A stretch of 20,750 bases of DNA from the IMG/VR virus record IMGVR_UViG_3300036863_000040, positions 1 to 20,750 of that record. One strand, written 5' to 3'. Below the pieces are notes generated by a model. That model made no database searches. It saw only the letters and a program-made list of their open reading frames with translations, and was not told where the DNA came from. Made by a program: the position numbers and the translations under genes. This DNA is from a virus. Shown piece after piece: positions 3,055-16,253 of this stretch (positions within the stretch are counted from its first letter, which is position 1; each line of letters opens with the position of its first letter).

Positions 3055-3426
3055 ATGCGTCACGCGCCGAAGGGGCCGATTAAGGCCCACCACCCTATCG
3101 AAGCCGACTACCCAGTGGAAGAGCGGCCGCGTTGCACAGCGACGAATCGACAGGGAAATCGATGCGGGAAGCCACCGATTCGTGGGGGTTATGTGTGCCG
3201 AATGCACGGAGGCGGAGCGCCGCAAGTGATTGCCAAAGCGCAGGAACGCCTACGAGCATTGGAGCCGAAGGCCATTACGACACTGGATAAACTGCTCGAC
3301 CGGGACGAGTTTCCCACTGTGCAATTTCAGGCGGCAAAGGCGGTGATTGATTACACGGAAGGCAAGGCTGCCGAGCGCGTAGAACAGCACATTGACGGGG
3401 ACATCACGCTTCGGTGGCAGTCGTAG
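3055..3426 (+). CDS. Putative terminase small subunit with Zn motif
   Basis: 123 residues from ATG 3055. A TTG at 3049 in frame has the better-spaced GGAG and would add two residues. Residues 27-51 hold a metal-binding pattern C27, C37, C48, H51 (CTATNRQGNRC ... VCRMHGG), a signature often seen in small phage proteins next to terminases. The rest is helical (QVIAKAQERLRALEPKAI, then LDKLLD ... FQAAKAVIDYTEGKA), like the DNA-binding and oligomerisation helices of small terminases. It directly precedes and overlaps the large terminase by 13 bases, the classical TerS position. The role would be to recognise the packaging site and regulate the motor. The assignment rests on context plus the motif; it could instead be an HNH-like or general DNA-binding accessory protein. 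Confidence 0.6.
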   Translation: MRHAPKGPIKAHHPIEADYPVEERPRCTATNRQGNRCGKPPIRGGYVCRMHGGGAPQVIAKAQERLRALEPKAITTLDKLLDRDEFPTVQFQAAKAVIDYTEGKAAERVEQHIDGDITLRWQS

Positions 3427-4760
3427 AGATCCCGTATGCCCCACGTCCTCTCCAGCGGGTCATCCACGATGCGATGGACCGCTACCGCCGGGGCGTGGTG
3501 GTGTGCCATCGACGGTTTGGCAAGACGGTCGCTGCAGTGAATCAGTTGCAGAAATGCGCCGTGAGCTTGGGCCGCAAGACGCCACCGCCTCGATTTGCGT
3601 ATATCGCACCGACGTTTACGCAGGGGAAGTCGATCGCGTGGGACTACATGAAGTACTACGCGCGGCCGATTCCAGGCGTCCGAGTCAACGAGTCTGAGTT
3701 GCGGGTGGACTACCCGAATCGTGCCCAGGTGCGTCTTTATGGAGCGGACAATCCGGACCGGTTGCGCGGGCTGTACTTTGATGGCGTGGTGTTGGATGAG
3801 TATGGCCTCATGCGCCCAGAGACGCTGCCTGAAATTATTGGTCCGACTCTGATGGACTATCGAGGATGGGCGCTCATTCTCGGCACTCCAACAGGCAAGA
3901 ACCAGTTTTGGCGCGAATACGAAACAGCACGCAAGGATGGGGCATGGTTCGCGGCGTCATATCCAGCCAGCCAGACTGGTATTTTGTCTGAGGACGAACT
4001 GGCGGATGAGCGGAAGCACATGACCGAAGATCAGTACGCGCAGGAATACGAATGCTCGTTTGAGGCGAGCGTGAGAGGCGCTGTCTTCGCGAAGGAAATG
4101 CTGCGCGTGCGGCAGGAAAACCGTATCACGGCTGTTCCGTATGACCCGACACTGCCAGTCGATACGAATTGGGACCTCGGCTATCGAGACGCCACGGCGA
4201 TCTGGTTCTCGCAGTCGTCCTATGGCGGGGTCGTTCGGCTAATAGACTACTACCAGAACACAGGCGAGGGCATCGACCATTACCTGCAGTTCGTGCAGGG
4301 CAAGCCATATACGTACGGGGAGCACTGGTTCCCGCACGACGTCGAGCAGCATGAACTGGGCACAGGTCGCCGGCTGATCGATCTCGTGCGAACGAAGCTG
4401 CGCAATGTGAATGTCGCGACACGGCTGGAGTTCTCGGACTCGTTGCATGCCCTGCGAATGCTTCTACCACGGTGCTATTTCGATGAGACGCGGTGTGAGC
4501 GCGGGCTTGACGCGTTGACCAGTTACCGGTGGCACTACAACACAGAATTGAAAGAGTTTACGAACAAGCCAGAGCATGACTGGGCGAGCCACGGGGCTGA
4601 TGCGCTGCGCACGCTGGCGGTTCGGTATGACCCAGCCATTCGGAAGGCTGAACGAGAGTTGAAGCGCGACAGTGGCGAGATAGATCATGCGCGGATGCTG
4701 CGCAACGAGTACGGCTATCGATCGCCTCGACAGGCTGGATTCAGGCGGGCTGGATATTGA
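3414..4760 (+). CDS. terL: Terminase large subunit (packaging ATPase-nuclease)
   Basis: 448 residues, GTG start inside the upstream gene. It powers DNA translocation into the procapsid and cuts the concatemer. The Walker A-like loop is CHRRFGKT (31-38), Walker B is VVLDE (125-129) and the coupling motif is LGTPTG (156-161). The C-terminal RNase H-like nuclease begins at VDTNWDLGYRDATAIW, with D254 a likely metal ligand. HDVEQHELGTG follows, and the last acidic motif is HDWASHGADALR with D396. Both domains are complete and the length is normal. The HRRFGKT variant of Walker A is seen in many phage terminases. It follows the likely TerS and precedes the small-gene cluster and portal. The packaging type (cos or headful) cannot be read from the sequence. 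Confidence 0.95.
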   Translation: MAVVEIPYAPRPLQRVIHDAMDRYRRGVVVCHRRFGKTVAAVNQLQKCAVSLGRKTPPPRFAYIAPTFTQGKSIAWDYMKYYARPIPGVRVNESELRVDYPNRAQVRLYGADNPDRLRGLYFDGVVLDEYGLMRPETLPEIIGPTLMDYRGWALILGTPTGKNQFWREYETARKDGAWFAASYPASQTGILSEDELADERKHMTEDQYAQEYECSFEASVRGAVFAKEMLRVRQENRITAVPYDPTLPVDTNWDLGYRDATAIWFSQSSYGGVVRLIDYYQNTGEGIDHYLQFVQGKPYTYGEHWFPHDVEQHELGTGRRLIDLVRTKLRNVNVATRLEFSDSLHALRMLLPRCYFDETRCERGLDALTSYRWHYNTELKEFTNKPEHDWASHGADALRTLAVRYDPAIRKAERELKRDSGEIDHARMLRNEYGYRSPRQAGFRRAGY

Positions 4761-5919: not shown

Positions 5920-6179
5920 AGCGTAGCCTTGTTGTCCGCATGAATGCAATGCTGAGGCAACTGGAATATGCGGACGATGGTCGCTGCCTTGAATGTGGGC
6001 TCATGGCAATGAGACACCGGAAGGACTGCGAATTGGGCGCGTTGATACGCGACATGGAAGATGCGGAGTTGGCTGTAGAAGTGATGAAGGCGCGAGCAGC
6101 CGACTGTAAGACGGTGCATTTCAATAACCGGGATGACATCACCGAGATACGCATACCTCATGGCACAACAAAAGCGTAG
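5916..6179 (+). CDS. Small hypothetical protein with Cys/His motif
   Basis: 87 residues from GTG 5916, chosen for the GTGA overlap with the membrane peptide and the GGGGG run 5 bases upstream; GTG 5910 is an alternative. The N-terminal half is helical (KRSLVVRMNAMLRQLEYAD), followed by CLECGLMAMRHRKDC, a CxxC plus His/Cys arrangement that could bind one metal ion. A second helix (ALIRDMEDAELAVEVMKARA) follows. It overlaps the portal start by about 20 bases. No family is recognised. Confidence 0.55.
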   Translation: MKRSLVVRMNAMLRQLEYADDGRCLECGLMAMRHRKDCELGALIRDMEDAELAVEVMKARAADCKTVHFNNRDDITEIRIPHGTTKA

Positions 6180-8196
6180 TCCCTGGGACGTCGCGCTCAC
6201 GCCAGACGCCAAAGAGAGGCTTGCAAACTGGCTGGTCTATGAACTCGACAAGGCGGTGTCCTGTCACACGGCCAGCGAGGCTGAAACGGCATACTGGCAC
6301 ACGCTGTACGAGCAGGGCCGTACGCGTGGCGCCCAAAACTCTCCGTGGGCTGATGCGGCAGACCTGACCAGTGCGATTGCCACCGAGAAGGTAGACGCGC
6401 TGCGCTCGCGCATCGTCAAAACCATCTTCGTTGATCCGATCTGGACCGTCGAGGGCTGGGGCGATGCCGGGCCCAAAGCGCCATTTGTCGAGTCGTTCCA
6501 CCAGTGGCAGGCAGAGAGCGAAGGCTTTCAGGCGGCATGCTCAAGAGCAGTACATCTGTCCTTGATCGAGCCACGTGGCGTGCTGGAGGTGTACGAGGAT
6601 ACGACCCGCCGGCCAGTCAGAAAGACCATCAAGGCGGCCATCCAGCAGGCGCCAGACGGCACAGCCTTGATCGGTCCGGACATGCAGCCGGTCTTGCAGC
6701 AGGGCCCGGACGGCTCGTATGTAGAAGTCACGGACGATCCGAATGTCCCGCCAGAGATGCAGCCTGCCTCAGCCGAGATGGTGATTGACGACTACGAGCC
6801 TGTCGCCAACGGACCCCGGCACCGCACCATCCCCTATCGCGATTTCTATGTCTTGCCTGGCCACGCCCGCGAGAAAGACGAAATCTGGGGCTATGCCAAG
6901 CGGTTCTGGAAGCGCGTCGATCAGCTCAAAGAGCGTGCAAAAGAGGGCGTTTACGACAAGGACGCCATTGAGAAGCTAGGCACGGCTGACGAGCGGCAAA
7001 GCGCCATCAACAATTCAGGCGGAACGACACTGGCTGGCGAGGCGCTGAGCATTCCCAGCCAGGAAGACGGCCTCGCGGAGAAGGAACTGCACGAAGTGCT
7101 CTTTCTGTACGAGCTCGACAAGACCGGGTACCGCTGGTATATCGCGACCCTGCACCGCGAGACGTCGACGCTGCTCCGTTTGCAGTATGACGACATCGGG
7201 CGACCCCGCTATTTCTCGTTTGTGCCGTTTCCTCGGCCAGATTTGACGGAAGGCTACTCGTTTATCGGCCACAAGCTGATTACGACCATCGAAGAGAACA
7301 CGGCGTGGCGGAACATGCTGGCCGATCGAGCAGCCCTACAGCTACAGGCGCCCATCATGCGCCGGCAAAACGCCCTCTGGGACCCGGACGACGAGCCGAT
7401 TGGTCCGAAACAGGTCATCACTGTCCGAGACATGCAGGAAGTCCAGGCCCTGCAGCTGCCCGATTACACGGCACCGGCGAGGGAGCGCATCATTGATACC
7501 GAGCGGCAGGCGGAAAAGCTCGGCGGGATGACGGATATTGCCTCTGGCAATAGTCCGAACGAAGACCGCACGCTCGGCGAAACACGCATCGTGACCGCCT
7601 ACAGCGAGGTCCGGATCGAGGAAGTGATTCGCAACCTGCAAGAGACGATCGAGGACATCGCGCAGGTTAGGCACCTGATGTGGAAGCGTGCGTTAGCGAG
7701 TATGCCTGATGGGGTCGAAGCTCCGACGCATGTGTTGCAAGGGTTAGAGACACGCGGCATGGATGTGACGTCATTCCTGCCGAACAAACGCTTTGCAGCG
7801 TCCGTGCTCGAGGGGGCCTATCGGTTCAAGCCGCGCGGCAGTGTCGAAGCGACTGATAAGCATCAGCAGCGGTCAGACTTTGCCGAATCACTGAAAGCAT
7901 TAGCTGGCATGGCAGCGGCGTGTCCGATGATTGGGATGTTGCTCCAGCAGCCCGCGACGGCCAAGGCGCTCCTCGAAACGTGGGTGAATCTGTATAATGT
8001 GGCTGATAAGCAGGCGTTTTTGGGGCCTGATACGCTCGGCATGGTCATGCAGCAGGCGCAAATGCTCGGCGGGATGGGCGGGCTCATGGGGCCGGCTGGG
8101 CTAGGCGGACAGCCGATGTTACCGCCTGGTAATCCACCGAGTGGGCCGGTGAATCCAGGTCGCCAGTTGCCACAAGAGCGTACGGGCGTGCAGTGA
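6160..8196 (+). CDS. Portal protein
   Basis: 678 residues from ATG 6160 (MAQQKRSPWDV); ATG 6133 would add nine residues but lengthen the overlap. Portal proteins form the dodecameric ring at one capsid vertex through which DNA is packaged and the tail attached. The segment NSPWADAADLTSAIATEKVD (residues 60-79) is the typical N-terminal portal signature in which a Pro-Trp motif precedes two helices. The segment TDIASGNSPNEDRTLGETRI at about residues 457-476 matches the region before the long stem helix (VRIEEVIRNLQETIEDIAQV). The C-terminal 50 residues are Gly, Met, Pro and Gln rich, as in the barrel tail of long portals. The place after the terminase supports the call. The length suits the larger P22-like or T7-like portals. 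Confidence 0.9.
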   Translation: MAQQKRSPWDVALTPDAKERLANWLVYELDKAVSCHTASEAETAYWHTLYEQGRTRGAQNSPWADAADLTSAIATEKVDALRSRIVKTIFVDPIWTVEGWGDAGPKAPFVESFHQWQAESEGFQAACSRAVHLSLIEPRGVLEVYEDTTRRPVRKTIKAAIQQAPDGTALIGPDMQPVLQQGPDGSYVEVTDDPNVPPEMQPASAEMVIDDYEPVANGPRHRTIPYRDFYVLPGHAREKDEIWGYAKRFWKRVDQLKERAKEGVYDKDAIEKLGTADERQSAINNSGGTTLAGEALSIPSQEDGLAEKELHEVLFLYELDKTGYRWYIATLHRETSTLLRLQYDDIGRPRYFSFVPFPRPDLTEGYSFIGHKLITTIEENTAWRNMLADRAALQLQAPIMRRQNALWDPDDEPIGPKQVITVRDMQEVQALQLPDYTAPARERIIDTERQAEKLGGMTDIASGNSPNEDRTLGETRIVTAYSEVRIEEVIRNLQETIEDIAQVRHLMWKRALASMPDGVEAPTHVLQGLETRGMDVTSFLPNKRFAASVLEGAYRFKPRGSVEATDKHQQRSDFAESLKALAGMAAACPMIGMLLQQPATAKALLETWVNLYNVADKQAFLGPDTLGMVMQQAQMLGGMGGLMGPAGLGGQPMLPPGNPPSGPVNPGRQLPQERTGVQ

Positions 8197-8225: not shown

Positions 8226-8455
8226 ACCGTCGCCTTCCAGTCCCATCAGCTATGAGCGTGACGTCCTTTAGGTGGGCGCTTTCGCTTCTGCATGAGACGC
8301 CGCGGCGCCTTGTCGTGCATCCTGACGAGGAACGCTGGGCGAGATTGGCCGTTGAGGCGACACCCGATTGCGATGTGGAACTTGCCTTTGATGCCAGCTT
8401 GCCGGAGATGCGCTGGCGCGTCGAGGGGGCCACGCGCGCAGTGGTGAGCGAATGA
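8198..8455 (+). CDS. Hypothetical protein sharing its N-terminus with the next gene
   Basis: 85 residues, one base after the portal stop. It begins MSDTIDALE, exactly as the following gene does, after which the two diverge completely. The remainder, with LVVHPDEERWARLAVEATP followed by DVELAFDASLPEMRWRVEG, looks like a small alpha/beta protein with an acidic C-terminal half. The next gene starts in an ATGA overlap at 8452-8455. Function unknown. The shared segment may be a recruited or copied translation-initiation and N-terminal tag. Confidence 0.55.
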   Translation: MSDTIDALEYRRLPVPSAMSVTSFRWALSLLHETPRRLVVHPDEERWARLAVEATPDCDVELAFDASLPEMRWRVEGATRAVVSE

Positions 8456-8479
8456 GCGACACAATTGATGCCCTTGAAT
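8452..8479 (+). repeat. 28-bp direct repeat, copy 2 (MSDTIDALE codons)
   Basis: Second copy of the segment at 8198-8225, with two synonymous differences. It again begins exactly at an ATG. Confidence 0.85.
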
Positions 8480-8745
8480 CGTTGGTGAGCTCCGAAGGCT
8501 GGCGTCTGTTAGCTGACACCGCGCGCAAGGAATGGACCGAACGCGAACGCGCAGGGCGGAAAAACGCCCTGAATGATACCGATGACAAGCGAGCCTTAGA
8601 CAAACTCAGACAGATTACGGCAGCGCAGGAGGCTGTTGAATGGGTGCTAGCGTTACCGAACGAGGAAATTGCCAGGCTGAAGCGACTGAGTTCGACGGAG
8701 GAATCATGGCTCCAGCCGTCGATGAGCCGGCGAGGACGTTTGTAG
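8452..8745 (+). CDS. Conserved-type phage protein near portal
   Basis: 97 residues, ATGA overlap with its neighbour and an identical MSDTIDALE start. Residues 10-35 (SLVSSEGWRLLADTARKEWT) resemble a small helical protein often encoded beside phage portals (L-x-S-x-G-W-x-x-L). A charged helix (RALDKLRQITAAQEAVEWVL) and PNEEIARLKRL follow. The last 15 residues read through the ribosome site of the next gene, giving a 40-base overlap with a compositionally odd tail (QPSMSRRGRL). The function is unknown; the position suggests a head-assembly accessory. Confidence 0.6.
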   Translation: MSDTIDALESLVSSEGWRLLADTARKEWTERERAGRKNALNDTDDKRALDKLRQITAAQEAVEWVLALPNEEIARLKRLSSTEESWLQPSMSRRGRL

Positions 8746-9176
8746 GCTTGACCATCACGCAAGACCGCGTGTTGATTCGGGCCGACCGGGAAGACAAGGC
8801 CCCTAAGCAGACCGCGAGCGGGATCTACCTCGCGCAGAGCCTCGCCGCAGCAGTCGACGGCTCAGACCTAGGCGAATCGTGGTTTGTGGGCACTATTGTG
8901 CGGCTTGGACCGCTGGTCCGGCGGTTTGACGTGCGAGAGACGGTACATGATTGGCTGCTGGAGTTAGAGCAGCATGGCCACGACATCTCGCCTGTGGAGT
9001 TGAAAGTCTTGCGTATGCGGATTCGCGCGCTGCCCAAAGAGCATGTCGACCCGCTGAACGTCGGGGATCGCGTGGTGTTCTCGTGGGCCAGCGGGCAGCA
9101 GATTGCAATTGATGACGACAAGTACGTGGTGCTGCGGGCGGACGACATCCTAGGCATTCTGAGCGATGACGAATGA
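8706..9176 (+). CDS. GroES-like co-chaperonin with helical insert
   Basis: 156 residues from ATG 8706, chosen for GGAGG four bases upstream. The N-terminal strand (LTITQDRVLIRADRED, 15-30), the mobile-loop region (KQTASGIYL, 34-42, equivalent to GGIVL that docks on GroEL), the strand WFVGTIVRLGP (59-69) and the C-terminal block NVGDRVVFSWASGQQIAIDD (118-137) plus YVVLRADDILGIL (140-152) follow the GroES order. GroES is about 97 residues. The extra length is mainly residues 70-117, a charged helical insert (VRETVHDWLLELEQ; PVELKVLRMRIRAL) where GroES has its short roof hairpin. GroES caps GroEL and closes the folding chamber. T4 gp31 is a known phage equivalent, needed to fold the capsid protein. 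The position between portal and scaffold fits the same job. It is probably functional, since both GroEL-contact and core strands are intact. Confidence 0.8.
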   Translation: MAPAVDEPARTFVGLTITQDRVLIRADREDKAPKQTASGIYLAQSLAAAVDGSDLGESWFVGTIVRLGPLVRRFDVRETVHDWLLELEQHGHDISPVELKVLRMRIRALPKEHVDPLNVGDRVVFSWASGQQIAIDDDKYVVLRADDILGILSDDE

Positions 9177-9430: not shown

Positions 9431-10336
9431 ATGGCAGAGATTAGCCCAGACGCGCTCTCACTGGAAGACGCGACCATTGAAAGCCCGCCGATCCAGCAGC
9501 CTGAAGCCGTTCAAGAACCAGATGAAGCCGAACCCGAAGGTGCTGTAGACGTCCAAGGCCGCCGCATGGTGGATGTCTCGGTGCTGGCCGCTGAACGTCG
9601 GCGCGTCCGGGAAGCCACTGAGAAGGTCATCCGTGAAGCACTCGCGAAAGAGCACGAGCCGATCAAGCAAAAGGCCGATGAAGCGGAACGGCTTCGCCAG
9701 GCGCTTGCTGAGACACAGCCTTACATCGAGCATCTGCGCCGACATCCGGAACTCTTGCAGCCGCCGAAGCCGACGCCGCTTGAGGAGCAGATTTCCGATG
9801 ACGAGGCGATCGCCGAAGCGCGCGATCTCGAGCTCTACAACCAGCAGACGGGCCAGCCGGATATCGCGCGCGCCAAACGTATTATTGCCAGGCGTCGAAC
9901 CGATGCGCAGACCGCCGCGCAACAGGCCGCACAGGCTGCGGTAGGCCCGATCACCAGCCAGACGGCGCAGCAGACCTCACGACAGAACTTCGTGACCATG
10001 GCGACCAGGAGAGACACCTCGAATCAACCGCTTGTCGATCCAAAAACGCTCGCGGAAATGTGGGCGCAGTTGCCACCGGAGCTGACGCAGCACGCCGAGG
10101 TGGGCGAATTGATACTTGATGCCGCGATTGGCAAGAGCCTCCGTACTAAAGGCCGTGTCGCAGCACCGGAACGGCCTCCTGTTGTCTCTGAGCCGGCCGG
10201 CGGACGTAGCGGGCCGAGTTATCAGATGGATCAGATGGCAAAGAACATAGCGCAGCACGCCGGGATCAGCCAGAAGGCGTTCACGGACGCCGCGAAGACG
10301 TATGTGCCTGGCGGCGTAAACATTTTGGGTGACTAA
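9431..10336 (+). CDS. Putative capsid scaffolding protein
   Basis: 301 residues with no gap to the preceding gene. The N-terminal 40 residues are acidic and proline-rich. They are followed by long charged helices likely to form a coiled coil (VSVLAAERRRVREATEKVIR and AKEHEPIKQKADEAERLRQA, about 49-93), an Ala/Gln/Thr-rich linker, and a C-terminal domain ending in MDQMAKNIAQHAGISQKAFT. The acidic helical make-up and position between portal and capsid genes are what scaffolds show; they line the procapsid inside and leave at packaging. There is no sign of a protease domain. It could also be a head-maturation accessory. The stop overlaps the next start (TAATG). Confidence 0.6.
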   Translation: MAEISPDALSLEDATIESPPIQQPEAVQEPDEAEPEGAVDVQGRRMVDVSVLAAERRRVREATEKVIREALAKEHEPIKQKADEAERLRQALAETQPYIEHLRRHPELLQPPKPTPLEEQISDDEAIAEARDLELYNQQTGQPDIARAKRIIARRRTDAQTAAQQAAQAAVGPITSQTAQQTSRQNFVTMATRRDTSNQPLVDPKTLAEMWAQLPPELTQHAEVGELILDAAIGKSLRTKGRVAAPERPPVVSEPAGGRSGPSYQMDQMAKNIAQHAGISQKAFTDAAKTYVPGGVNILGD

Positions 10337-11769: not shown

Positions 11770-12687
11770 ATGGCACAGACACGCGGCACCTTTGCTGAAC
11801 TGCATGACAATCTGGACCGAGCGATTTATACGCTGCTCGGGAAGGAATACAAAGAACTTCAGCCGATCTGGCGGAAGTACTACGACATCAAGACGTCGAA
11901 GAAACGCTCAGAGCTCGTCATGGGCGTGGTCGGCATGGGGGATATCCCGGAGAAAAACGAAGGCGCGCCCTATGTGTCGGATATCATCCAGGCTGGGTAT
12001 AGCAGGGAATTCCTGCATACTGAGTTTGGCCTTATGTTCGAAGTAACGCAGACCGCGCTCGAAGATGACCGCTACGACGTGCTCTCGGAGTACGCCAAAT
12101 GGCTCATGTTCTCTGCGCGGGTGGTTGAGGAGAAGCGCGCGGCGATCCTCTTCAACAACGGGTTCGGCGGCGAGCAGTCGCCTGATGGCGTGTCGATCTT
12201 CAACTCGGCACATGTCCTGAAGGGTGGAGGCACGGCGCGAAACCTTCTCTCCACCGCGTCTGACTTGTCGTGGACCTCGCTCCAGCAGGCCCTGACCGAC
12301 TGGCAGCGGGAAACCAAGTTCGAAGCCGGCCAGTTCATGCAGCCGGCAGAGGACTTGTGGCTCATCGTCCCGCCGGAACTGGAGTTCACGGCGCATCGCA
12401 TCGTTGCGTCAACCGGCCTTCCGGGTAGCGCGGACAACGATGTGAACGCGATCAAGGCTCTCCGCAACATCACCGTCGTCAAGAACGTGTATCTGACGGA
12501 TACCGATGCGTGGTTCTTGCTCGCCAAGAACAAGTCGCATGGATTCTGCAGTTACACGCGCGTGCCGATGTCGATGGAACCGGCGATGACCGACCCGAGG
12601 ACCCGCAACCGGCTGTATCCGGTGAGGTTTAGGCGGAGCTGGGGATGTCGTTGGTGGCAGGGTAGTTTTGGTACGCCCGGCGCGTAG
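11770..12687 (+). CDS. Major capsid protein
   Basis: 305 residues, AGGGAG upstream of ATG. The N-terminal arm (ELHDNLDRAIYTLLGKEYKE) leads into a helix-rich region. It carries FGLMFEVTQTALEDDRYDVL and WLMFSARVVEEKRAAILFNN, the segments expected for the E-loop and spine helix of HK97-fold capsid proteins. A characteristic C-terminal block is NVYLTDTDAWFLLAKN, followed by YPVRFRRSWGCRWWQGSFG at the end, which matches the R-F-x-x-S-W-G ... G-S/T-P-G ending seen in Mu gpT-like and related capsid proteins. Length is normal for this group. It would form the icosahedral shell around the scaffold. No protease gene is visible and no cleavage site can be read. It precedes a strong hairpin at 12709-12766. 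Confidence 0.8.
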   Translation: MAQTRGTFAELHDNLDRAIYTLLGKEYKELQPIWRKYYDIKTSKKRSELVMGVVGMGDIPEKNEGAPYVSDIIQAGYSREFLHTEFGLMFEVTQTALEDDRYDVLSEYAKWLMFSARVVEEKRAAILFNNGFGGEQSPDGVSIFNSAHVLKGGGTARNLLSTASDLSWTSLQQALTDWQRETKFEAGQFMQPAEDLWLIVPPELEFTAHRIVASTGLPGSADNDVNAIKALRNITVVKNVYLTDTDAWFLLAKNKSHGFCSYTRVPMSMEPAMTDPRTRNRLYPVRFRRSWGCRWWQGSFGTPGA

Positions 12688-13221: not shown

Positions 13222-13878
13222 GTGAGTCTTAGGGCTGTAACGACCTATGTCCAGCCAGGGATGACCGCGCTGGACATAGGGGCGAATGGTGGCTCGTACG
13301 CACGCGAGATGCTGCGCTGCGTGGGGCCAACTGGGCGTGTATACGCCATCGAACCGGACCCGCGGGCCAAGCCGGTCGAGGGCGTGCACTGGCTCCAACT
13401 GGCCTGTGCGGATCAGGACGGCACGACCACATTGATGATTGCTCAGGAGCCCATGCAGAACTCTCTTTGGGCTCCTAACGTGCCCGTGCTGCTCGAGCGT
13501 GTGGATGTCCGCGTGGCCAGGCTCGACACGCTCCAGGCACAGGGCCTGTTACCAGACCATATCGACGTAGTGAAGATCGACGCGCAAGGCGCCGAAGTAC
13601 GCATCTTGGAACACGCCACGCGCCTGTTAGCGGGGAACACGGTGTGGATCGTGGAAGTGTGGCATGACGGCCTCCAGACGAGCGGGCGATCCGCCGCTGT
13701 CTTATTCCAGCATTTCGAGGCGGCGGGCTATGCGGGATGGATTGCGGAGAGCGATATAGGGCAACCACCGCGACCGTGGCCTGAATTGCAGCGGTGTGCC
13801 GACGGGCATCGCGGCACCGAGGAACATCTCAGTCACAAAAGCTTCGACCTCGTGGCGCGGCGCGTAGCTGGAGTCTAA
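13222..13878 (+). CDS. FkbM-family SAM-dependent methyltransferase
   Basis: 218 residues, GTG start two bases after the previous stop. It has the Rossmann motif MTALDIGANGGSYAREM (residues 14-30), an acidic ribose-binding residue in VYAIEPDP (40-47, E44) and the FkbM signature block VDVRVARLDTL plus DHIDVVKIDAQGAEVRILEH (112-131). VWIVEVWHDG closes strand 5. FkbM enzymes O-methylate sugars or small molecules with SAM. It is a complete enzyme of usual length. It lies between decoration-like genes and is out of place among structural genes. Targets could be glycans on virion proteins, host glycans, or other small molecules. The glycosyltransferase-like protein at 1150-2130 is a possible partner in the same pathway. 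Function of the fold is solid; the substrate is unknown. Confidence 0.85.
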   Translation: MSLRAVTTYVQPGMTALDIGANGGSYAREMLRCVGPTGRVYAIEPDPRAKPVEGVHWLQLACADQDGTTTLMIAQEPMQNSLWAPNVPVLLERVDVRVARLDTLQAQGLLPDHIDVVKIDAQGAEVRILEHATRLLAGNTVWIVEVWHDGLQTSGRSAAVLFQHFEAAGYAGWIAESDIGQPPRPWPELQRCADGHRGTEEHLSHKSFDLVARRVAGV

Positions 13879-14599: not shown

Positions 14600-15163
14600 A
14601 TGCCTGTTGCCGGCGAGTTTCACAGCCATCTATGGCGGGCTCGCGCGAATGGTCCCGCTCCGCCAAGCGAACAATATCAGGGGGCCATGTATCCGCCTTG
14701 GCAGAGATCAGTCCTGTATGTCTCGTTTTTCGGCGTGCCGTGGGATTACGCGAAGCATCTCTGGGATGTCCTGTGCTGGTATTGGCGTCTGTGGCAGTGT
14801 CTGCGGCTCTCCTCGATGAATGCTGAGCAGTTAGCGGTCCTCGTGCGCGTGAGCCGTGCGCTGCACCGACCTGAATGGGCCACGGCGCGGCAGTTGGTGC
14901 GCACGTGCGCGACCTCGCCGAGCTTTCATCGTCCGGAACAGTGGATTGAGTATGGGCGGGCACTCAAAGCGAATGCCGGGCAAGCTCAGAACGTCTTCCG
15001 CCACGTCAAAGTGGTTCATCAGCTCAAGGCGGCACACCCGGAACTCTCCAATCCTGAAGCACATCTCCTGGCAGAGCTCGGCTATCAAGGCTTCGCGACT
15101 CGAAAGCATCCGGATCGGCGTGTTGTGCGGCGGCGCATCGTGAAAAGGCGGATTGATGGCTAG
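14600..15163 (+). CDS. Hypothetical helical protein with aromatic N-terminus
   Basis: 188 residues from ATG 14600 (TTG 14594 is an upstream alternative). Residues 30-65 are aromatic-rich (QRSVLYVSFFGVPWDYAKHL, then WDVLCWYWRLWQC) and could be an amphipathic or membrane-inserting helix. The rest is basic and helical (LVRVSRALHRPEWATARQLV; KANAGQAQNVFRHVKVVHQL), ending in a run of Arg/Lys (RRVVRRRIVKRRIDG). The composition breaks sharply from the beta-rich neighbours. It overlaps the next gene by 8 bases. It is unlike any family I recognise. DNA-binding or ejected internal protein are possible readings of the basic tail. Confidence 0.5.
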   Translation: MPVAGEFHSHLWRARANGPAPPSEQYQGAMYPPWQRSVLYVSFFGVPWDYAKHLWDVLCWYWRLWQCLRLSSMNAEQLAVLVRVSRALHRPEWATARQLVRTCATSPSFHRPEQWIEYGRALKANAGQAQNVFRHVKVVHQLKAAHPELSNPEAHLLAELGYQGFATRKHPDRRVVRRRIVKRRIDG

Positions 15164-16253
15164 CTTCTCGAACATCGACATCGAAGAAAGCGCCACCGTC
15201 ACGAAAAGCGTTGGCTCGGTCACGATTGCCCGCGGCTCGACGAACGAGGAGCAAGAAATCCTCTGCTTGGGCGATCCGGATACCTCGAACGCAATTGCGG
15301 CGATCACGAATGCGGCGCCAGCCTCAACGCGCTGGGGCCTGAATGTCCGCATCGTCGGCGGGCCATCATCGGTTGCAGATCTCGCGGTGCGGGCGGTTCT
15401 GTCTTCGACGGCAGCGGATAACCCCGTCAACGTCTCAAGCATGGCAGGGCAAGTTAGTGTCGGCGAGTACTCCACCGCGGTACCGGCGGTCGGCTCGACG
15501 GGGCTTGTCGTCCGTCTCGCATCTACGGGCGTGCGGGTTATCAATTCCAGCGCTGCGGACCTGCTCGCGAATGTCTCGTCAGTGGCTGGACGGGTTCTGG
15601 CTGACCAGAACTCCACCGTCTGGGCGGTTCAAGTCGATGGCCGAGTCAGGGCGCAGAACTCCACTATCGGAGACCTGCTAGCAAGTGTCCAGCAGAACTC
15701 GACGGTGTGGGCGGTCCAAGTAGACGGCCGCGTGCGTGCCCAAAACAGCACGATCGGCGACCTGTTGGCCTCGGTGCAGCAGAACAGCACCGTCTGGCAG
15801 GTCCAAGCCAAGATTCAGGATTCCTCGGGCGTCTCGCCCTCAATCGTCAACAGCGCGCCATCGACGTCCATGCAGGGCCTGGTTGTTCGTGAGGTCGTCG
15901 GCGGGATGAACTCGACGACGGTCACGATTACGTCGACGCACAGCACGGCACTCTACAGCCTTATTTCCTCTGTCGCTGGCGCGCAGCAGAAAGTGACCGC
16001 GTATTTCATCGGGTCGACCCATACGAACCCGTCGACGCTCGTCTTCATGTCGAGCAACGTGATTGACCGCTGGGGCGTGAATTTCGGATCTGGATCCTCT
16101 GGCGTGACAGGCGCGAATCTCGCCGTTGGCGCGCCGGCATGGCTGTTCAACACCGATGCCGCCAATGCGCTGAATTGTCGGATCGAAGGCGGATCGTCCG
16201 TGACAGCCACTGTTGTGGCGCGTGTATCGATTAGCTGGTTCTCAGAGGCGTAG
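15156..16253 (+). CDS. Structural protein with 29-residue tandem repeats
   Basis: 365 residues from ATG 15156 (TTG 15153 is alternative). The N-terminal part is a beta-type region (ESATVTKSVGSVTIARGS). Residues 151-208 contain two perfect copies of a 29-residue unit that starts QNSTVWAVQVDGRVR, then a truncated third QNSTVWQVQA. Preceding segments (INSSAADLLANVSSVAGRVL) look like older, degenerate units. The C-terminal half is again beta-rich (QQKVTAYFIGSTHTNPSTLV) with closing strands. Repeat-bearing, Ser/Thr/Asn-rich chains of this type occur in phage tail fibres and head fibres, where repeats set length. The role in host binding is inference. The two copies are identical in protein but differ at 18 codons. 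Confidence 0.6.
   Translation: MASFSNIDIEESATVTKSVGSVTIARGSTNEEQEILCLGDPDTSNAIAAITNAAPASTRWGLNVRIVGGPSSVADLAVRAVLSSTAADNPVNVSSMAGQVSVGEYSTAVPAVGSTGLVVRLASTGVRVINSSAADLLANVSSVAGRVLADQNSTVWAVQVDGRVRAQNSTIGDLLASVQQNSTVWAVQVDGRVRAQNSTIGDLLASVQQNSTVWQVQAKIQDSSGVSPSIVNSAPSTSMQGLVVREVVGGMNSTTVTITSTHSTALYSLISSVAGAQQKVTAYFIGSTHTNPSTLVFMSSNVIDRWGVNFGSGSSGVTGANLAVGAPAWLFNTDAANALNCRIEGGSSVTATVVARVSISWFSEA
15606..15809 (+). repeat. Tandem 87-bp protein repeats
   Basis: Unit 1 is 15606-15692 and unit 2 is 15693-15779, each 29 codons. A partial third begins at 15780. The two full units encode the same 29 residues but differ at 23 bases over 18 codons, all synonymous. Each unit holds QNST twice, 16 residues apart. 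Confidence 0.9.

Follow-up and report, generated by a model that had tools for sequence, protein, structure and literature searches.

To our knowledge, the role of the roof of GroES is poorly understood. A well-known natural example of a lid without a roof is gp31 of phage T4. In the folding of T4 gp23, gp31 takes the place of GroES (PMC6318259; PMC3012670). Cage enlargement was proposed in T4 for the 56-kDa gp23, and the gp31 found there has lost its roof (PMC6318259); according to a review, cage size alone may not account for gp31 specificity (PMC3012670). Lacking roof loops, gp31 is nevertheless an accepted co-chaperonin, and a short roof is thus typical of the family but not strictly defining (PMC6318259). 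In HTVC023P-type phages, GroES belongs to the core genes (PMC9599517). Here, we analyzed a 20,750-nt stretch of viral DNA (IMG/VR record IMGVR_UViG_3300036863_000040, positions 1 to 20,750), referred to below as the window, which carries a GroES gene with an enlarged, predicted helical roof.

Results

A GroES homologue with an interrupted Cpn10 domain

The product of the ORF at 8706-9176 is a GroES/Cpn10 homologue. The sequence GGAGGA lies close upstream of its ATG, and the ORF shares 40 nt with the preceding one. The HMM search that had been proposed in a preliminary description of the window gave a match to PF00166 (Cpn10) with an E value of 2.8e-11 and 43.7 bits, well above the curated cut-off of 21.1, and the protein matched PHROG 3188 (co-chaperonin GroES) at 1.2e-13. 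The NCBIfam GroES models also matched, with scores under their own cut-offs. PHROG 3188 was matched as well by 40 of 45 relatives. When the whole genome was searched, the Cpn10 match came in two pieces within one open frame (8757-8846, Cpn10 positions 5-31; 9051-9158, positions 57-92), a split around residues 69-118 that is expected from an insert.

To model the fold, we used AlphaFold2 (AF2) on the monomer with an input alignment of 45 sequences, the window protein and 44 relatives. The model had a mean pLDDT of 81.9 and contained barrel strands at residues 21-26, 59-67, 122-126, 130-135, 138-144, and 148-152. All 28 PDB matches returned by Foldseek at E ≤ 0.001 were co-chaperonin chains. The highest VIA-align score was obtained for Mycobacterium tuberculosis Cpn10 (1p3h; Z 12.4), with Z 9.8 for GroES in 1aon and Z 10.1 and 9.5 for gp31 structures. 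The best chain outside the co-chaperonins was an oxidoreductase (Z 7.8), from a family that possesses a GroES-like domain. Thus, the 156-aa ORF stands as the preliminary description gave it, and its reading of the residues flanking the insert as a GroES barrel is confirmed by the two profile matches and the confidently predicted barrel; both a Cpn10 match and a GroES fold were found.

The window protein has the barrel fold of the GroES family and, by prediction, a flexible mobile loop with a hydrophobic tripeptide. The low pLDDT of this loop (Table 1) is expected for a flexible segment. It includes SGIYL (residues 38-42), a motif of the GroEL-binding type; the strict pattern [SGED]-G-hydrophobic-x-hydrophobic occurs in 42 of 58 aligned sequences, and the remainder are mostly close variants. 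Residues G62 and G68 are almost invariant among the aligned relatives. The mobile-loop region of the window protein is about a dozen residues longer (SLAAAVxGxDAxxSW), a feature common to L016, L017, L018, L023, and L024, its nearest relatives, whatever their roof type; other members have a shorter region.

A predicted helical hairpin replaces the roof loop

We measured roof length as the number of residues between the conserved GTxxxxG and VGDxV motifs, which gave 50 residues for the window protein versus 16 for Escherichia coli GroES. The typical short roof loop is absent from the window protein; its place is taken by 50 residues that include a predicted hairpin of two helices, at residues 76-89 and 96-108 in the AF2 model and with a pLDDT of about 92-93. 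The insert had been placed at residues 70-117 and described as helical; alignment to the relatives moves its borders slightly, to about 69-118, and the predicted helices agree with that description. For L044, which carries another, divergent roof subtype, AF2 likewise gives a helical hairpin (residues 78-90 and 103-112), so that the helical structure is predicted for two of about 20 long roofs.

A Pfam search with the insert alone matched no family. In tblastn searches with the GroES proteins of the window, L017, and L044, no clear copy of the insert was found in 50,697 phage records; these gave nothing, or weak Cpn10 hits that were partial or shorter than the query. Foldseek and VIA did not turn up a long helical roof among solved structures, where one may still exist. 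A study by Marine and colleagues is said to deal with virioplankton chaperonins. Our literature search found no description of helical roof inserts; that study (Marine et al. 2017, ISME J 11:2479) lay outside the search and may mention variation of the roof. Phage GroES genes and the loss of the roof are already known, and as far as we searched, the helical roof is a variant beyond those. It stands out against known co-chaperonins, in keeping with the earlier remark that a long helical roof is unusual.

The GroES gene belongs to a head cassette

The window gene order is portal (687 aa), small ORFs, GroES, a scaffold-like gene, two further genes, and capsid (Table 1). Homologues of the small ORF directly upstream of GroES lie between portal and GroES in L016-L018, L020, L023, L024, and L030, and after the portal in L015. 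The scaffold-like gene had no family match in profile searches; from its position and composition, its product is probably a scaffold. The placement of GroES between portal and scaffold in the preliminary description is borne out in that the head-morphogenesis cluster is confirmed, the scaffold being a putative one.

Table 1. Features of the GroES gene and of the surrounding head cassette. Positions are those of the window; residue numbers refer to the GroES protein.
Feature	Position	Strand	Basis
Portal protein, cassette anchor	6133..8196	+	phrog_332 head-tail adaptor, 1.1e-9; matches annotated portals
Small conserved ORF directly upstream of GroES	8452..8745	+	homologues in relatives
GroES/Cpn10-family co-chaperonin, 156 aa	8706..9176	+	Pfam, PHROG, AF2 model, PDB matches
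First barrel strand region, residues 18-28, TQDRVLIRADR	8757..8789	+	Cpn10 5-31 match from 8757; model strand 21-26
Mobile loop, residues 31-58	8796..8879	+	low pLDDT, 53-62
Barrel strand before roof, residues 59-68, WFVGTIVRLG	8880..8909	+	model strand 59-67
Roof insert with predicted helical hairpin, residues 69-118, 50 aa	8910..9059	+	AF2 helices, roof lengths, alignment of relatives
Second barrel half, residues 119-152, VGDRVVFSW...DDILGIL	9060..9161	+	Cpn10 57-92; model strands 122-152
Scaffold-like protein, downstream of GroES	9431..10336	+	same place in L016-L018, L020, L021, L023, L024
Major capsid protein, 305 aa, about 34 kDa	11770..12687	+	PF25209 Phage_capsid_4, 1.7e-13; matches annotated capsid proteins

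Named phages reached through the capsid protein (DSL-LC04, HTVC027P, HTVC023P, CRP-901, Pag-Yong1, 023Pt_psg01, and similar ones) have the order portal, small genes, GroES, a gene of about 300 aa, one of about 160 aa, one of about 190 aa, and capsid. GroES is annotated in this same slot, for example, in DSL-LC04, HTVC027P, and CRP-901. Of the related portal loci, 50 extend at least 2 kb past the portal gene, a set in which a few contigs are counted twice; GroES was found downstream of the portal in every one of these 50 and ended 0.5-2.4 kb beyond the portal end.

Other observations concern the wider neighborhood. An FkbM-type methyltransferase gene (13222-13878; PF05050, 1e-13) lies inside the structural block; related genes occur in L020, ahead of the portal gene, and in L023. 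The ORF at 15153-16253 carries near-identical tandem repeats of QNSTVWAVQVDGRVRAQNSTIGDLLASVQ and is possibly a fiber or surface protein. The portal of L015 is 96% identical to that of the window; tblastn gave no match in L015 to the window terminase (3414-4760), and a different terminase-like ORF occupies its place (L015 5176-6801). It thus seems that unrelated terminase genes were exchanged upstream of a near-identical portal.

Roof states among the relatives

Single-protein scans with the window GroES and with the terminase found no viral relatives. These were recovered with the portal protein and then with portal plus capsid alignments; the portal-based scans gave 67 viral loci. On cellular genome contigs, the capsid scan found nothing, and the portal scan detected a single contig, which comes from a Gemmatimonadaceae MAG and at 4,959 bases is too short for naming a host; the GroES encoded there is also long-roofed. 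Separately, most of 61 cellular Gemmatimonadota genomes sampled have a second, diverged Cpn10 besides the normal GroES. In the eight of these that we read out (L112-L119), the roof is longer and proline-rich, and a mobile-loop-like motif, VGLYLPP, is conserved.

We compared the roofs of 58 aligned sequences, 57 from phages or viruses and that of E. coli. Roofs of 6-9 residues were present in 22 of the 58, and the same number was counted among the 47 rows of a portal tree. Roofs of 14-20 residues without CxxC occurred in nine phage cassettes and E. coli, and roofs of 16-17 residues with CxxC in five (5/58 aligned; 5/47 in the portal tree). The remaining 21 roofs measured 35-66 residues, including that of L031, which shows no obvious helical character and comes from a sequence that does not belong to the portal family. 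Roofs of 40-66 aa occupy 20 of the 47 portal-tree rows, so that long roofs are frequent among these phages. Two subtypes of long roof could be told apart: FDVR... in the window, L017, and L018, and HPRKAEAE...LLRDLVRREP in L030, L037, L042-L045, L055, L061, and their kin. The CxxC roofs (L020, L024, L067, L068, and L106) read, for example, CPSCGKG or CTKCGRG; with two cysteines per subunit, they could coordinate metal or cross-link neighboring subunits at the dome.

The closest comparison is with L016, whose portal is 59% and whose capsid is 73% identical to that of the window. L017 and L018 carry an insert similar to the window's, and L016 has none: on the alignment, the two proteins differ by about 41 residues (69-109) that make up one in-frame module, with PEQSKDPIV of L016 aligning to the insert end PKEHVDPLN of the window. 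In the portal tree, obtained by a quick search without bootstrap, the window and L016 form a sister pair (SH-aLRT 99). To explain the long state on this tree takes about nine changes, at least eight of which are forced by well supported branches, and the roof states are strongly clustered relative to shuffles. We counted changes on the portal tree because the barrel-only tree, with four starred branches, is too short to resolve.

We also compared dN/dS between insert and barrel in three pairs, which are small samples with synonymous sites close to saturation. The values were about 0.28 (insert) and 0.13 (barrel) for L017/L018, 0.33 and 0.26 for L044/L037, and 0.34 and 0.21 for L043/L045. Being near 0.3 yet above that of the barrel, the insert dN/dS indicates a segment that is constrained but evolves faster.

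Discussion

We consider it likely, with a probability of roughly 0.8, that the window protein is a phage co-chaperonin that works with host GroEL; the role of its helices is far less certain. The case for a lid is built on homology and genomic context. We found no Cpn60 gene in 24 records including the window, which may in part be fragments (the control was positive in 14 of 14 cellular genomes), so that the partner should be the GroEL of the host. Together with the place among head genes and the precedent of gp31, this makes a host-GroEL lid for head proteins the most likely function. The protein would be made within the head cassette, form a sevenfold ring, and dock on host GroEL through its mobile loop, capping the chamber during the folding of phage head proteins, with the capsid protein as the presumed substrate and first candidate. 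At the top of the dome, the two-helix hairpin would replace the roof loop, so that a heptamer would have fourteen helices, on its dome or within it. These helices would most plausibly modulate closure of the lid or contact with phage protein that is inside the chamber or on its way out. We favor such modulation without deciding between crown and docking site; the roof itself is best read as a helical crown that is gained and lost among relatives. A gene that always adjoins those for portal, scaffold, and capsid might instead encode a virion or assembly protein in which the Cpn10 fold is reused without any contact with GroEL. We regard this as very improbable, as the mobile-loop motif and flexibility, neither of which a structural role would need, are retained, and gp31 and its RB49 relative stand in for GroES (PMC3012670).

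Why the roof is helical is harder to say. The preliminary description suggested a lid for a larger chamber into which the capsid protein would fit. The gp31 cage is indeed 8% larger by cryo-EM, but gp31 enlarges it through longer mobile loops and has no roof loops, and the protein described as slightly too large is the 56-kDa gp23, so that the window capsid protein falls well below the limiting size (PMC6318259). Among complete relatives, long-roofed and roofless alike, the capsid protein almost always measures 305-306 aa, and the portal would be too large in either case. With capsid size constant across roof states and an enlarger that itself lacks roof loops, the need for a larger cage is improbable, and we reject it as the main reason for the insert; that part of the preliminary description found no support. 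Alternatively, the roof may be a site where insertions are tolerated and selection is weak, so that its lengths mostly reflect drift or recombination. The forced changes of the long state and the faster evolution of the insert relative to the barrel would fit, but an insert dN/dS still near 0.3, the motifs kept in the larger subtype, and the clustering of roof states make this rather unlikely.

The helices could also provide docking for one particular phage protein (scaffold, capsid, or portal), which they would recruit or pass on; the lid would then be a targeting adaptor and more than a simple cap. This is a narrower form of the co-chaperonin reading and compatible with the GroEL role. Purifying selection on the insert, the motifs HPRKAEAE...LLRDLVRxEP retained in many members of one subtype, and the consistent position of GroES near head genes all speak for it. 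Likewise, T-even gp31 homologues of similar size favor their own gp23, which implies that features other than size matter (PMC3012670). Yet the sister L016 has no insert, and its capsid protein shares about 73% identity with that of the window; any partner would be a candidate among the head proteins, and we hold docking to be possible, at somewhat less than even odds. To a similar, tentative degree, we propose for the co-chaperonin that its roof is a swappable module: helical crown, CxxC loop, and open hole may interchange at one position within one phage family, each state conferring a different lid property for host GroEL (sealing, substrate docking, or release) that is matched to head assembly or to the host chaperonin, independently of cage size.

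This phage group offers a natural experiment on the roof of a chaperonin lid, a spot that is repeatedly absent, helical, or cysteine-bearing, and it includes sister pairs with and without the helical module at constant capsid size. Because related lids differ in the roof and capsid size does not change, the function of the roof, and the question of the phage's own lid, could be tested by module swaps with GroEL.

Compared with known systems, the window protein shares with E. coli GroES and bacterial Cpn10 (PF00166) the barrel, the strand order, the mobile loop with its hydrophobic tripeptide, and a Pfam score above the cut-off. It differs in the helical roof that takes the place of the 16-residue loop and in the mobile-loop region, which is longer by about a dozen residues. 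PHROGs 3188 and 13932 (phage co-chaperonin GroES) match as profiles, but the 96 positions of PHROG 3188 leave no space for the insert. Like T4 gp31, whose role in capsid folding is known, it is a phage-encoded co-chaperonin of the Cpn10 fold, at 13-14% identity in the structural alignment; in contrast to gp31, which has no roof loops (PMC6318259), its roof is enlarged and helical. An open dome of the gp31 type is thus not that of the window protein, though many relatives have 6-9-aa roofs. The GroES proteins of HTVC023P-type pelagiphages, CRP-901, and DSL-LC04 are Cpn10 by annotation and alignment and occupy the same slot before scaffold-like and capsid genes, in phages whose capsid proteins are 32-36% identical to that of the window. 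Their roofs, however, are 16-20 aa long and often end like FPxGPWCK, most have N-terminal extensions, and the long roof of the window protein is present in none of them.
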